Below are positions 5,903-62,637 of a stretch of DNA of 64,000 nt, piece after piece. The notes beneath the pieces were generated by a model, which saw only the letters and a list, made by a program, of their open reading frames with translations, was not told where the DNA came from and did no database searches. A program made the translations under genes and the position numbers. Within the stretch, counting starts at the first letter, position 1. The number at the start of each line of letters is the position of its first letter. The DNA lies in contig JAJRTS010000020.1 in NCBI GenBank assembly GCA_024278175.1, forward strand, positions 1 to 64,000, given 5' to 3'. The DNA comes from Gemmatimonadales bacterium (GTDB taxonomy: Bacteria; Gemmatimonadota; Glassbacteria; GWA2-58-10).

Positions 5903-5969
5903 TGACAGACGGACTTTTCATGCGCATTCTGTTTTTCCAGTTATTTTTTGCAGCAGCAGCACACCGGCG

Positions 5970-6020
5970 ATTCCCCTCTACAAAGAGGGGTGCCCGCTGG
6001 TAGCGGGCGGGGTGTGTAAT
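5970..6020 (+). repeat. Double-hairpin interspersed repeat, copy 1 (forward)
   Basis: Hairpin 1 is cccctct (5973-5979) with agagggg (5984-5990). Hairpin 2 is gcccgc (5992-5997) with gcgggc (6003-6008), followed by ggggtgtgt. The same two-hairpin unit recurs at six other intergenic sites in this window in both orientations. Confidence 0.8.
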
Positions 6021-8570: not shown

Positions 8571-8589
8571 TTTTTGCCGATAAAACCCC

Positions 8590-8740
8590 GATGGCTTCGT
8601 AAAAAGTCCATCTACTTCGTTGCGTAAGATTATCTCATCACTGCAGCGTACTTACGGTACGCTGCATTCCTCGAAATCTACGCGCCTCGTATATGAAGCT
8701 TTTTTCTTTACCATCGGCAAAGCTGACTTTTTACGACATC
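8590..8740 (+). mobile_element. MITE-like element, copy A (about 151 bp)
   Basis: The left end gatggcttcgtaaaaagtc (8590-8608) is mirrored by gactttttacgacatc (8725-8740). The perfect inner part of the terminal inverted repeat is tcgtaaaaagtc. No protein is supported inside. A second copy in opposite orientation lies at 53319-53475 and shares internal sequence such as atctacttcgttgcg. A non-autonomous transposable element is the simplest reading. Confidence 0.75.
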
Positions 8741-14923: not shown

Positions 14924-14982
14924 AGGATAGTCGGATTCTATACGACTCCCGGCGCCGGCTGCATTTGCTGCAAGCTGTCTGC

Positions 14983-15045
14983 GTCAGGAGTCATTAGCCC
15001 TTGTAAATATGGGCGGTTCGGCGTAAGGAGAACTCCATCTCCCGT
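14983..15045 (-). promoter_or_regulatory. Fluoride riboswitch aptamer (crcB motif)
   Basis: Read on the minus strand, the segment contains GGAGATGGAGTTCTCC, then CGCCGAACCGCCC, and then GGGCTAATGACTCCTGA. These match the conserved blocks of the crcB RNA: the G-AUGG 5' stem-loop, the CGCC-rich middle and the UAAUGA-CUCC 3' block that forms the pseudoknot. It lies about 150 bases upstream of crcB with an intrinsic terminator between, so fluoride binding should allow read-through. Family assignment is from motif recognition, not a covariance search. Confidence 0.88.
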
Positions 15046-15193
15046 ACGGTACGGCCCAAAACTAATTCAACAAACATGTTATGTCAAGCATTCCCTGCCA
15101 TCCGTCTTGACAGCGGTCTGCGTAAAGGCGATTTTGAATAATCGGTGGAACGCTTTGGAAATAAATCTTCAAGCCAGGCGGGAGGGGTATCGG

Positions 15194-19527: not shown

Positions 19528-19556
19528 CGGCTTGAAAGGCAAAAGATAAGGGCAAA

Positions 19557-19644
19557 GGCGCGCCCGGCACACTCATTGCTTTGCGCCGCGGGCCACTATT
19601 AATCCGGCGGTGGCGGCTTCGGCAATGAGTGTGCCGGGCGCGCC
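19557..19644. repeat. Perfect 23-bp inverted repeat with GC-rich spacer
   Basis: 19557-19579 (beginning ggcgcgcccggcacactc) is the exact reverse complement of 19622-19644. The 42-base spacer has its own partial pairing (gccgc/gcggc, ccac/gtgg), so the unit can fold into one long bulged hairpin. No T tract follows. It lies in the convergent gap after the DUF4832 gene. Confidence 0.75.
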
Positions 19645-19719
19645 TGCGTGGGCTGGTTTTTCCAGATCTTATTATTATCTTTCAGGCAGGGTAAATTTCG
19701 AAGCGAAAGGTACATAAAA

Positions 19720-23002: not shown

Positions 23003-24925
23003 ATGCAAAGAAAAATCCTGTTCTGTTTGACCTTGCTGACTTTCGCGGCCACGCCCGGCTTGTTTGCCCAACGGGGGCCAAAAGTACTGCCGGACCATCC
23101 GCGCCTGATGATCCGTGCCGAAAGCGGCGGAGATGCTCGTCTTGTAACGATGGAAATGCTGCGGGCCAGGGCCGCCGATCCCCGGTTCGAGCGGTTTCAC
23201 ACCCGGTTGAACCGCTCGATGGCCAACTACGCGATGCGGGCGCTGGCTTACGATGACAGCGCTGCGGCCGACAGCGCGATCGCCATGCTGTTGGAGCCCA
23301 ACCTCTGGAGCGGTACCACCTGGGACGGGATCAGGGTGATGTGGGAGGCGTTTGTGTTCGACTGGCTCTACAACCACCCGAATTTCGACCCGTGGGAAAA
23401 GGCGCTGGCGATCCAGCAGATAGTCGAGGACGGGGAGAAACTCTATGAGCGATTGCAAACCAATGGCCACATTTTCCACACCCGGATGTACGCCTGGGCC
23501 ACGGGCGTGGCGGCGGCGGGCTATGCGCTGAGTGGCCACTACGAGGACGCCCCCAAGCTGACCCGGTTCGCCAATAGCTATTTCAACGATAATCTCCTGC
23601 CCGCGCGCAGGCTGCTGGGCGGCTCGGTGCATAACGGGTTCGGCTACGGCCGCCACTATATCATGTGGCTCACCGGCCATTACCTGAGCATGGTTTATTC
23701 GGCCACCGGCCAGGACCTCTGGAGCGAGGTACAAAGCGAGCAGGACAACTGGGCCGCGCGCGAGGCCCAGTTCATCATCTACGGCCGTCAGCCCGACGGC
23801 CTGATGGCCAAGTTCGGTGACTGCTACCGCCGCACATCCGAGCGGTTCAGCTTCCGGGTGATCAGCGAACGCAACTGGTACTATCACAACCCCGTCTATC
23901 AGGGTTATCTCAACCGTCTGCTCTCCGAGCAGAGCAACAGCGTGTTCGAGATCGGCAACGACTATATCGCCTACCTCTTTTTCGACCCGGACCGTCCGGC
24001 AGCAGGTGTGGAATCGCTACCCGCGAAAACTTTGTTCGGCCAATACGGTACCGGAATCGCAATCTGGCGCTCGGGATGGGAGCCGGACGATCTCTGGCTG
24101 TTCTTCAGTTGCGGCGATTATTTTGGCAACCACGGCCACTATGACCAGGGTACGATTGATATTTTTCTCAAAGCTCCGCTGCTGGCCGAGGCCGGCGCCT
24201 ACGCCGGCGGGTACAACAGCGATTTTCGTAAGAATTTTTACCGTCAGAGCGTGGCCCACAATACCCTGCTGATCCAGGACCCGGCCGACCCGGACGATAT
24301 CGGCGGGCAGCGGGTGTATACGAACCAGGAACTGGGCACGATGAAAGAATACCTGCTGGATATCGATGCTGAGAGCGGCCAGATTCTGGCCCACCAGCCC
24401 GGTGACGATTTGAGCTACCTGCTGGCCGACCTCAGCGCGGCATATCCCGGCGACCGGGTGGAGCGGCTCACCCGCGAGCTGGCGCTGGTGGACAACCGCT
24501 GGCTGGTGGTACGCGACCGCGTGCTGCTCTCCGATCCGCGCTACCTGCCCAAGGTGCTCTGGCACTGCATGGCCCGGCCGGATGTCGATAACAAGCGGTT
24601 TGTGGTTGAAAGAAACGGCGGCAGGGCCACGCTGCAACTGCTTCAGCCAGCGGACGCCACGCTGGAGTGGGTGGAGGGCTGGGTGGCCGGAGCACAAAGA
24701 TTCGAGCTGGAGATCGACACGACCTTCAACGATCCCGGCGTGGGCCGGGTGGAGATCACAGGCCGTAGCGGCCAGCGGAAGCACACCTTTCTGCAGGTGA
24801 TTGACATCTCATCCGGAAGCGGCTGGCGGGAGTCATCGTACAGAGAAACCAAACAAGGCACCGAGGTTTCCCTGCCCGGTGGCCGCAAGTTGTTGCTGAG
24901 GGAGAACGGGGCGGAGTTGAGGTGA
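23003..24925 (+). CDS. Secreted heparinase II/III family polysaccharide lyase
   Basis: This 640-residue protein has a signal peptide (ILFCLTLLTFAATPGLFAQ). An alpha/alpha toroid region (residues about 30-340) has NGFGYGRHYIMWLTGHYLS. The heparinase II/III beta-sandwich then carries GNHGHYDQGTIDIFLKAPLL with the conserved His/Asp metal-binding cluster, and VAHNTLLIQDP. Such enzymes cleave uronic acid-containing polysaccharides (heparin, alginate, ulvan-like) by beta-elimination. GGGGG about 10 bases before the ATG supports the start. The specificity cannot be read from the sequence. Confidence 0.88.
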   Translation: MQRKILFCLTLLTFAATPGLFAQRGPKVLPDHPRLMIRAESGGDARLVTMEMLRARAADPRFERFHTRLNRSMANYAMRALAYDDSAAADSAIAMLLEPNLWSGTTWDGIRVMWEAFVFDWLYNHPNFDPWEKALAIQQIVEDGEKLYERLQTNGHIFHTRMYAWATGVAAAGYALSGHYEDAPKLTRFANSYFNDNLLPARRLLGGSVHNGFGYGRHYIMWLTGHYLSMVYSATGQDLWSEVQSEQDNWAAREAQFIIYGRQPDGLMAKFGDCYRRTSERFSFRVISERNWYYHNPVYQGYLNRLLSEQSNSVFEIGNDYIAYLFFDPDRPAAGVESLPAKTLFGQYGTGIAIWRSGWEPDDLWLFFSCGDYFGNHGHYDQGTIDIFLKAPLLAEAGAYAGGYNSDFRKNFYRQSVAHNTLLIQDPADPDDIGGQRVYTNQELGTMKEYLLDIDAESGQILAHQPGDDLSYLLADLSAAYPGDRVERLTRELALVDNRWLVVRDRVLLSDPRYLPKVLWHCMARPDVDNKRFVVERNGGRATLQLLQPADATLEWVEGWVAGAQRFELEIDTTFNDPGVGRVEITGRSGQRKHTFLQVIDISSGSGWRESSYRETKQGTEVSLPGGRKLLLRENGAELR

Positions 24926-24931
24926 ATTGAA

Positions 24932-24983
24932 TAACACACCCCGTCCGCCAGTGGCGGACACCCCTCTTGATAGAGGGGATTAT
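24932..24983 (-). repeat. Double-hairpin interspersed repeat, copy 2 (reverse)
   Basis: Reading on the + strand: acacaccccgtccgcc-agt-ggcggac, then acccctct-tgat-agagggga. This is the inverted orientation of the unit at 5970. It starts seven bases after the heparinase-like stop codon. Confidence 0.8.
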
Positions 24984-25036: not shown

Positions 25037-25116
25037 GGGCGGGCGGCACGCGCATGGAACATGCGCCCGTCCCCTGCCGGGGACGGCGGCGCTTACAGCG
25101 CCGGTGCCGCCCGCCC
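25037..25116. repeat. 80-bp perfect three-arm cloverleaf (four-way junction) palindrome
   Basis: A 13-bp closing stem (gggcgggcggcac 25037-25049 with its exact complement 25104-25116) encloses three adjacent perfect hairpins. These are 25050-25066 (gcgcat/atgcgc, loop ggaac), 25067-25086 (ccgtcccc/ggggacgg, loop tgcc) and 25087-25103 (cggcgc/gcgccg, loop ttaca). Every base from 25037 to 25116 is in a stem or a hairpin loop, with no unpaired base at the junction and no mismatch. It lies in the convergent gap between the heparinase-like and Gfo/Idh genes. No coding potential is supported. Confidence 0.9.
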
Positions 25117-25175
25117 CGCCGCGGTGCTCCAGTACTTTTCCTTCAGCGGCAAAAAGGGAATCATTGGGACATAAA

Positions 25176-25209
25176 CGAAAAAGCCGGGAGCTCGACGCTC
25201 CCGGCTTTC
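25176..25209 (-). terminator. Terminator after the Gfo/Idh gene
   Basis: aaagccgggagc (from 25179) pairs with gctcccggcttt (to 25208). On the minus strand the stem is followed by a T run (+ strand gaaaaa, 25177-25181). It is about 25 bases past the stop of the minus-strand gene. Confidence 0.8.
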
Positions 25210-25234: not shown

Positions 25235-26602
25235 TTACATCTCCACCTTACGGGTCCGCGGGTTCCAGCGCACTATCTTGTTGTTGCGGAAACTGACATT
25301 GACCATGTGGCCCACGTTGACCGCGTTCACTCCGATCTCCATCGGTTCCACGGCCTTGTCTTCGCCGCGGATGGCGTCGTACCAGTTACGCATGTGCGCG
25401 GTGGTACTGCCCTCGGTACCGTCGCCGGGATTGAAAACCGTCGGCTCCTCCGTGGCCGGAGGAGGATTCTTTAGCGGCTGAAGGTCGTCGTTGAGGTCCA
25501 TGATCTTTTTGAACTTATCGACAGTGGCGGTTGGCCAGCTGTGGGTGGGATAGCGGAAGTCCTCGCGGCGAGGCTCGTAGTAGTAGGTCATCGAGCCGCC
25601 GTTGTACTCCAGGGTTCCCTCGGTGCCATAGAAGGTCAGCGCCGGGCCGGGATGGCCGTTGTTGGCCGTGCTGGTCAGCTTGAGCGTGAACCCTTCCGGG
25701 TACTTGGCCAGGGCGGTCATCTGGTCGGGCACGTCACGGTACTCTCTCCAGCGGTAAATATCGCCGAACGAGACCACCTGGTCCGGAGCGGTGACGCCCA
25801 TCAACTGATGGGTGGCGGTGACCAGGTGGACGAACAGGTCGGTGGGCAGGCCACCGGAATAGTCCCAGAACAGTCTCCACTGGAAGAAACGCCTGAGGTC
25901 GAAATCGTACCACTTGGAGTCGCCGATAAAACGCTTCCAGTTCACTGTCCGGGGGCTGGCATCGGGCGGGATCGGATAGTACCACGCGCCGGTGGAGCTG
26001 TTGCGATGAATCTTGCCCTCGACCATCGTGATCTGGCCCAGCTTGCCGCTTTTGATCATCTCCGTGGCTTTCCTGGCGCAGGGCATGCTCATGTACTGGC
26101 TGCCCACCTGGGTTACCAGGCCGCTGGCCTTTGACCACTTGATTAAGTCCTCGCCGTCCTCCCAGCGATGAGTCAACGGCTTTTCGCAGTAAACGTGTTT
26201 GCCGGCGTCCAGCGCGTCCTTGACCAATTGTTTGTGCCAGTGGTCGGGAGCGGCGATCACCACCGCATCGATATCCTTGCGGCTAAGCACCTGCTGGTAG
26301 TCTCCGGTAACTTCCAGCTTGCTGCCCGCGACTTCTTTGGCCCGGTCAAGATGGCCGGTATAGAGGTCGCAGGCCACCACCGGTTCCACGCCGGCCACTT
26401 TCATGCTGGCTTCCAGCAGAAGAGTTCCGCGGATACCGACTCCCAGGAAACCCACGCCCAGTCTCGATGGCGGCGGGACAGTACTGTCGTTGATCTGGCT
26501 GTTGCCTGCCTGGGTTGCTCCCGCGGCCAGCGAGGCGGCTGCTGCCCAGAACGTGGTCCTGCCGATAAAATCTCTGCGGTTGAGCCTGACTTCTTCTTTC
26601 AT
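25235..26602 (-). CDS. Tat-exported Gfo/Idh/MocA family oxidoreductase
   Basis: This 455-residue protein has a twin-arginine signal (LNRRDFIGRTTFWAAAASLAAG). The Rossmann domain follows with VGFLGVGIRG as the dinucleotide-binding loop. DAVVIAAPDHWHKQLVKDALDAGKHVYCEKPLTH contains the conserved EKP Lys near the nicotinamide. The C-terminal alpha/beta domain includes GGLPTDLFVHLVTATHQLMG. Family members oxidise or reduce sugars and polyols; Tat export implies the cofactor is bound before secretion. AGGAGA before the ATG at 26602 supports the start. The neighbouring GH94 gene is upstream on the same strand and may be co-transcribed. Confidence 0.92.
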   Translation of the reverse strand: MKEEVRLNRRDFIGRTTFWAAAASLAAGATQAGNSQINDSTVPPPSRLGVGFLGVGIRGTLLLEASMKVAGVEPVVACDLYTGHLDRAKEVAGSKLEVTGDYQQVLSRKDIDAVVIAAPDHWHKQLVKDALDAGKHVYCEKPLTHRWEDGEDLIKWSKASGLVTQVGSQYMSMPCARKATEMIKSGKLGQITMVEGKIHRNSSTGAWYYPIPPDASPRTVNWKRFIGDSKWYDFDLRRFFQWRLFWDYSGGLPTDLFVHLVTATHQLMGVTAPDQVVSFGDIYRWREYRDVPDQMTALAKYPEGFTLKLTSTANNGHPGPALTFYGTEGTLEYNGGSMTYYYEPRREDFRYPTHSWPTATVDKFKKIMDLNDDLQPLKNPPPATEEPTVFNPGDGTEGSTTAHMRNWYDAIRGEDKAVEPMEIGVNAVNVGHMVNVSFRNNKIVRWNPRTRKVEM

Positions 26603-34967: not shown

Positions 34968-35070
34968 ATCCCCTGGCTCCCTTTGGCAAGGGGGGGGGCA
35001 AGTCCCCCTTAATAAGGGGGGTGCCCGCAGGAAGCGGGCGGGGGTTGTTATCCCTTTTTGAAAAGGGGAA
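34968..35070 (+). repeat. Double-hairpin interspersed repeat, copy 3 (extended)
   Basis: The core tcccccttaataagggggg then gcccgc-aggaa-gcgggc and ggggg matches copy 1. Here it is flanked by two further hairpins, one at about 34970-34998 (ccctttggcaaggg) and one at about 35051-35068 (ccctttttgaaaaggg), making a four-hairpin array. Confidence 0.7.
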
Positions 35071-50106: not shown

Positions 50107-50157
50107 TTAACACACCCCGCCCGCTTGCAGCGGGCATTCCTCTTGTTAGCGGGGAAT
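50105..50157 (-). repeat. Double-hairpin interspersed repeat, copy 4 (reverse)
   Basis: acacaccccgcccgc-ttgca-gcgggc is followed by a degenerate second hairpin (tcctcttgttagcgggga). It sits at the ubiA stop codon, inside the presumed ubiD-ubiA-ubiX transcription unit. Confidence 0.7.
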
Positions 50158-53318: not shown

Positions 53319-53475
53319 GATGGTTTCGTAGAAAGTCATATTTTTCGATGGCAAAGTAAAAAGCTCCAGCTGCGAGGCGCGCAAATATCGAGCAATGGGG
53401 GCCTACTCAAAGGTACTCCGCAACGTGCGAGATATGGAAGCGCAACGAGGTAGATGGACTTTTTGCGAAGCCATC
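53319..53475 (-). mobile_element. MITE-like element, copy B (about 157 bp, inverted relative to copy A)
   Basis: gatggtttcgtagaaagtca (from 53319) and gactttttgcgaagccatc (53457-53475) form the terminal inverted repeats. Internal cgcaacgaggtagat (53441-53455) is the reverse complement of the matching segment of copy A at 8610-8624. It is inserted between folK and rsfS and ends 15 bases before the rsfS start. Confidence 0.75.
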
Positions 53476-53490
53476 AGGGAAGGGAGCCTG

Positions 53491-61066: not shown

Positions 61067-61542
61067 TGGCCGGTGGGTGCGTGGGAGCGGTGCAACACAC
61101 TCATCCCGTTGTTACGCCCCCGTCATCCTGTGGCGGACACCTCCGTCGGCAAAGGGGGGGAGGACGGGGGCGTACGTGACGATTTTAAAACTTTATTACG
61201 GGAGATACCAGAGGAGTTAGCAGGGCTGATTCAGGCGATGGCGGCCTGAGTCTATGGATTTTTTACATCAACAATGTTAATTATGTCTTTGCTAATAATC
61301 GACAAACCGATAGCAACGATAAGCAAGCGACAGCAGCATACATTTGGTTGATTGCATACGCTTTATAACCTGATTAACTGTCAGGCATTTTCCGGCGGAA
61401 TGATAAATTAACGGAGGCAATCCAATGCGCTGCAGTTATACCTGAAACCGATCCGACGTTAAACCAGATTCAAATGAAGCCGTATCCATCTATTAAAAAG
61501 TCTCGTTCTGCTTCACAGGGCAATATGGTTTAGGGTGTAGTT
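61067..61542. other. Intergenic region with GC-rich inverted repeat grading into AT-rich DNA
   Basis: A 12-bp inverted repeat, tacgcccccgtc (61113-61124) with gacgggggcgta (61163-61174), encloses a sequence like part of the double-hairpin repeat. A short frame ending at the TGA at 61247-61249 (LREIPEELAGLIQAMAA) could be the tail of a decayed gene, but too little remains to identify. From about 61250 the DNA becomes strongly AT-rich into the next gene. Confidence 0.4.
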
Positions 61543-62298: not shown

Positions 62299-62637
62299 TC
62301 AGTATTTCAACCGGTATTCTATGCACATCGCCCCCCCTAAAGACTATCAGAGCAGTACAGCACTTTTCCCAACGCGGTATAGCCAAAGCTCGGATCGGCT
62401 TGGTACCGCGAAGATCTGAGGATGCAGTTGCTGGTTATCCGGAGAGGGTCCGGTAAAAACAGCAGGCCCTATTGAAAACAACGTTGTTTTCAATAGGTTG
62501 GGCTTCTATGTTTTAAATCGGTCGGGAAAACAATCCCGTCCGCTTGTGGCGGACGCCCCTCTTAAAGGCACGTTTTTTACCCAGGAGGCGGCGCAGGGGT
62601 TACCGGCTTTGTATTATCCTGCTGACTACTTGAACCC
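62299..62637. other. Intergenic region with three inverted repeats
   Basis: It contains an imperfect hairpin (cgcggta 62373-62379 with taccgcg 62404-62410), a 30-bp perfect palindrome (62468-62497) and a degenerate double-hairpin repeat (copy 7, about 62529-62570, reverse). No gene is supported. Confidence 0.55.
62468..62497. repeat. 30-bp perfect palindrome
   Basis: cctattgaaaacaac is followed directly by its exact reverse complement, with no spacer. No T tract follows immediately. It could be a protein-binding site, a recombination site or a hairpin without loop. Confidence 0.7.

Follow-up and report, generated by a model that had tools for sequence, protein, structure and literature searches.

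A lineage-restricted family of dispersed intergenic cloverleaf elements with conserved arms in Gemmatimonadota

The locus at positions 25037-25116 of the window, the whole 64,000-nt stretch of Gemmatimonadales DNA that was analyzed, raises the question of what a perfectly paired cloverleaf is doing between two convergent genes. The element, annotated without a strand, is closed by a 13-bp stem in which 25037-25049 pairs perfectly with 25104-25116. This stem encloses hairpin 1 (25050-25066, GCGCATG-GAA-CATGCGC, 7 bp with a loop of 3), hairpin 2 (25067-25086, CCGTCCCC-TGCC-GGGGACGG, 8 bp with a loop of 4) and hairpin 3 (25087-25103, CGGCGCT-TAC-AGCGCCG, 7 bp with a loop of 3), with no unpaired base at any of the four junctions. 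An earlier note on this DNA had described the same 80-bp, three-hairpin structure with a 13-bp stem and no junction gap, and we confirmed it. Its proposed arms of 6, 8 and 6 bp with loops of 5, 4 and 5 were right for the middle hairpin, but each outer hairpin has one extra pair. The predicted DNA fold of the 80-mer (-47 kcal/mol, z = -8.0) was equaled by none of 200 dinucleotide shuffles. Further, a scan for mismatch-free cloverleaves with three hairpins, arms of at least 5, a closing stem of at least 8 and junction gaps of at most 1 matched this element alone in the 64-kb window and nothing in 15 dinucleotide shuffles of it, in line with the expectation that random DNA would not give such a structure. 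The scan matched 18 times in the related loci examined, each time at a member of the family described below. The 80-bp cloverleaf is real and chance is excluded as its origin.

The surrounding gap is convergent, as had been proposed, with a heparinase II/III-like gene on the forward strand (23003-24925) ending 111 bp before the cloverleaf and a GFO/IDH/MocA oxidoreductase gene on the reverse strand (25235-26602) ending on the other side. The latter has an ordinary intrinsic terminator at 25180-25208 (reverse strand). A dispersed repeat had also been reported next to the cloverleaf, and it does exist but belongs to a different family: a REP-like intergenic repeat of two adjacent hairpins (CCCCGTCCGCCAGTGGCGGACACCCCTCTTGATAGAGGGG) at 24939-24978, which recurs at 50115-50154, 61118-61157 and 62534-62573 and in inverted form near 5963-6017 and 34997-35050. 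Elsewhere the window holds a fluoride riboswitch (RF01734) scoring over the gathering score at 14978-15051 (reverse strand) and a 24-bp perfect inverted repeat with a 42-bp spacer (19556-19579 and 19622-19645). There is also a 39-bp inverted pair (CCCCGATGGCTTCGTAAAAAGTCCATC..., 92% complementary) whose members lie 45 kb apart at 8586-8624 and 53441-53479 and resemble the two termini of a further dispersed element.

Is the cloverleaf a solitary structure? A blastn search of our own genome (G000) with the 80-mer returned the original only, so that a sequence search alone would have wrongly refuted the finding; the same search gave several copies in a same-genus genome. We built a covariance model of sequence plus structure from 4 sequences (R1), later extended by a second model (R2). 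R1 identified 7 further copies in our own genome and many more in relatives, and it matched copies outside its training set with E down to 1e-11. Across the six genomes that make up the entire sample for this family, order and class, and counting each place once, we found 8 copies in G000, 13 in its sister species of the same genus (G004) and, among the other family members, 25 in G001, 14 in G005 and 1 in G003, or about 61 in total. The covariance models found no copy in G002, and a structure-only scan of 302 kb from G002 and G003 revealed no diverged cloverleaves. There were also no matches in 292 other genomes sampled in the phylum, a search run with strict filters and few candidates scored per genome that very diverged relatives could escape. 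Four unrelated GTDB genomes contained exact 20-mer matches, but the structure model did not recognize these and we treated them as chance. Among 54 analyzable copies, 53 fold as a closing stem plus three hairpins and 32 have no unpaired junction bases. Hairpin 1 is the most conserved in sequence across the family and hairpin 2 the most variable, ranging from 4 to 15 bp in other copies with compensated changes. These data show that the 80-mer belongs to a family of dispersed DNA elements that is restricted to one lineage, occupies intergenic sites and has a fixed architecture, usually with gapless junctions.

Pairing within the family is maintained by covariation, with 18 of 32 modeled pairs showing at least two Watson-Crick types in the model alignment (one row per copy), so the variation is compensated rather than disruptive. 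The Watson-Crick share of paired cells was 94.1%, compared with 81.7% (maximum 83.5%) after the 3' letters were shuffled within each genus group, although this alignment was fitted to the structure and so favors pairing. The comparison of arms and loops between orthologs is independent of that alignment. Seven of the 8 copies in our genome occur at the orthologous place in G004, beside orthologous genes and mostly at near-identical distances. For these 7 pairs, with arms defined from the fold of our own copy alone, arm identity was 434/443 (98.0%) and identity of unpaired bases 61/95 (64%), in a test that covers one pair of closely related species and takes its fold from one of the compared sequences; with the consensus fold, the values were 98.4% and 64%. 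By comparison, fourfold-degenerate sites of the flanking genes were 62% identical (1546/2500), or 69% (1430/2069) for G/C fourfold sites, against which the arms differ with P of about 1e-49. Even codon positions 1 and 2 of these genes (88% identical) fall below the arms, and the intergenic sequence flanking the orthologous copies is mostly unalignable. Because the arms are 98% identical while loops stand at 64% and fourfold sites at 62-69%, this sequence comparison shows what appears to be strong purifying selection on both the sequence and the pairing of the arms, with loops free to change at the neutral rate. Base composition cannot explain the arm conservation. The selection on a four-helix structure that the earlier note had proposed thus gains support from the many copies, the compensatory changes and the arm conservation. 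Neither of the two outcomes that the note had named as refuting it, a lone copy or uncompensated variation, was observed.

Part of the arm conservation could nonetheless stem from a local suppression or correction of mutations instead of selection. A separate explanation is that template switching at quasi-palindromes, a documented process (PMC7202029, PMC3820800), keeps the arms paired without any function. Such a mechanism would yield perfect stems as well as matched changes in the two arms, but it predicts that the arm sequence itself drifts, and of 219 pairs only 2 differ at both positions between G000 and G004. Moreover, the arms of the neighboring terminator hairpin have changed in the sister species whereas those of the cloverleaf are unchanged. 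As sequence is conserved beyond pairing, we rejected quasi-palindrome correction alone as largely refuted and consider it very improbable. Two non-orthologous G004 copies (L066 3071-3142 and L070 3087-3158) have a common hairpin-1 mismatch (GCGTAC..GTCCGC) that is absent from their G000 orthologs, L061 and L056, both of which carry the paired form; this suggests exchange between copies within a genome.

If the arms are selected, the constraint could act on RNA or on DNA. A transcribed cloverleaf could block 3'-5' exonucleases or aid termination at the ends of mRNAs, like some REP functions, and either orientation would work, since the reverse complement folds into a cloverleaf as well. The settings of the copies (27 tandem, 10 convergent, 10 divergent and 14 at contig ends or unclear) are nearly all intergenic, as judged with a codon-usage gene caller under which two copies overlap a predicted, possibly spurious frame. 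In tandem gaps, 22 of 27 copies lie nearer the 3' end of the upstream gene (P = 0.0015, with orthologous copies not independent), at a median of 58 nt from 3' ends compared with 157 nt from 5' ends, and the distances to the upstream stop codon are kept between species (19/18, 26/24 and 46/44 nt). Both patterns favor an RNA role. However, a copy with fully conserved arms (C59 in one species, C6 in the other) sits between divergent genes whose start codons are 145/157 and 204/223 bp away, so a 3'-UTR role cannot be general. The window copy has a separate ordinary terminator beside it and shows no T-run directly after its stem on either strand (at 25117 or 25036), and Rfam offered no covariance-model match over the gathering score. 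The transcribed strand also shows no sign of RNA wobble tolerance, as non-Watson-Crick cells away from loops and ends comprise 15 G.T and 17 A.C, a comparison of modest power. The neighboring genes are functionally unrelated (heparinase-like, GFO/IDH/MocA, GH42, aldo/keto reductase, URO-D, ABC and GH28). We rank this RNA-level explanation second and regard it as rather unlikely.

Orientation provides a further line of evidence. Relative to tandem genes, 12 copies point the same way and 15 the opposite way, as expected at random. Between G000 and G004, 2 of the 7 orthologous pairs show the element in opposite orientations with respect to its flanks, with its arms still conserved. One of these pairs is the window copy (C7) and its G004 counterpart C81, for which orthology extends to one flank only, that of the oxidoreductase gene; in the other (C47 and C10), the genes on both sides are orthologous and lie in colinear order. 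C106, another G000 copy whose flanks are related to those of C47, has the C47 orientation, so the C47/C10 flip probably occurred in the G004 lineage. The absence of a G.T excess, the random orientation and the two inverted orthologs all point to a strand-symmetric, DNA-level constraint, which fits these data better than a single functional RNA strand.

A DNA-level element could also be purely selfish, that is, a non-autonomous REP/MITE-like sequence moved by an HUH or other transposase whose structure is conserved only as a transposition substrate. The family has clearly spread, since nearly all loci differ between genera, and both its dispersal and its range from 8 to 25 copies agree with such an origin, as does its amplification in G005. 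There the cloverleaf forms the center of a unit of about 200 bp with terminal inverted repeats (TIRs) CCCGGATTATTCAT(A/G)AA, and the copies share these TIR-bounded flanks. We also identified an abundant MITE family in our own genome, G002 and G005 (L161-L175) with the ends TTAG|CCCGGATTATTCAT...ATGAATAATCCGGG|TTAG, a length of about 80-255 bp, varied interiors and an apparent 4-bp TTAG/TTAA target duplication, which carries a cloverleaf inside only in G005. Given that the same ends occur without a cloverleaf in our own genome and G002, the G005 cloverleaf looks like a hitch-hiker in an unrelated MITE, and we rejected this TIR as the defining end of the cloverleaf family. Around copies in the genus of the window and in G001, external TIRs and target-site duplications are absent or unclear. 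In the one empty-site comparison, a G004 copy (C62a) is absent from G000, but the intergenic flanks have diverged too far for a target duplication to be delimited.

RAYT-like Y1 proteins (RRSLRL..YDY..PGAYFVT motif), which might mobilize such an element and had been suggested as a partner, are present in G001, G004 and G003 (L112, L114, L115 and L116). We rejected RAYT/Y1 as the partner as these genes do not track the copies (G005 has 14 copies and no Y1 match, while G003 has Y1 and one copy) and no cloverleaf lies beside the Y1 loci examined. A suggested phage link likewise found no backing, as the matches in phage records were all short, partial and chance-like and viral_contigs gave nothing for two family patterns. 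Against the selfish explanation, fixed orthologous copies would not be expected to keep such arm identity, so far above the neutral level, if they were inert insertions. We place it third and think it unlikely.

The likeliest explanation, though a tentative one, is that the cloverleaf is dispersed DNA of the REP/MITE kind that acts at the DNA level, its cruciform or hairpin form being a putative protein-recognized site. In agreement with the earlier note, which recognized no described bacterial family, we found none with this architecture in Rfam or in the literature searched, the latter being weak evidence given its incomplete coverage. The closest parallels are REP, REPIN and BIME sequences with RAYT (TnpAREP), which are also short, GC-rich, dispersed intergenic palindromes with a bias toward gene 3' ends, compensatory stem changes and lineage-specific distribution. 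Unlike REPs, which are 20-40 bp single hairpins or hairpin pairs typically present in more than 100 copies (PMC2817692), the cloverleaf is a four-helix unit of about 70-95 bp with 1-25 copies per genome. In the REP super-families, the stem has at its foot an unpaired tag, either GTAG or CGTC (PMC3733652), but among 110 cloverleaf element ends we found 3 GTAG and 1 CGTC. RAYT-linked REPs flank their cognate RAYT gene with two inverted copies (PMC2817692); no RAYT flanked by cloverleaves was found in the loci scanned. Because the element shows neither this tag as a rule nor the RAYT arrangement, we do not class the element as a REP, and infer only that it may resemble REP/BIME DNA in its mode of working. 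Bacterial MITEs are similarly dispersed and non-coding, and the G005 cloverleaf lies within a TIR-bounded unit, but old cloverleaf copies appear to be under selection and those of the window's genus and G001 show no clear external TIRs. Palindromic GC repeats of fungal and algal mitochondria (yeast mtDNA, PMC4478555; Lobosphaera, PMC4524435) are also dispersed, GC-rich and thought mobile, but they are organellar and are likened here by description rather than sequence.

The self-priming terminal hairpins of the parvovirus type consist of a long stem enclosing hairpins and change orientation by flip-flop. The cloverleaf shares the enclosing stem and the flips but lies at internal chromosomal sites, has three inner hairpins and no replication protein, and showed no viral link.

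How might such a site work? We propose that each strand would fold into the cloverleaf in supercoiled or transiently single-stranded (lagging-strand) DNA, and we infer that a protein recognizes this folded form. A putative host protein would bind the four-way junction or else the hairpin arms, whichever way the unit points, in the manner of REP/BIME sites. Such binding might organize intergenic DNA or insulate it, in many cases a short way past stop codons. The first spread of the family was probably that of a non-autonomous mobile DNA of the REP/MITE kind, as the copies that still ride inside a TIR-bounded MITE in G005 may illustrate, and fixed copies would then have been retained for function. 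An occasional flip of a unit in place could result if one arm of the closing stem recombined with the other, or from template switching between them.

It is possible, if doubtful, that these elements represent a novel class of cis-acting sites in chromosomal DNA, putatively recognized not as linear duplex but in folded form, as a four-way junction with three hairpins, selected at dozens of intergenic loci, free of orientation and flippable in place. The family bears on the question of whether cruciform and hairpin structures in bacterial chromosomes have a function or are accidents. Here a complex, all-paired DNA structure has arms whose evolution is many times slower than that of neutral sites and loops that evolve neutrally. 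The family also illustrates that a structure model can uncover repeats invisible to blastn. Finally, its natural inversions provide a built-in test of orientation, and selection on DNA structure becomes directly testable at defined loci.
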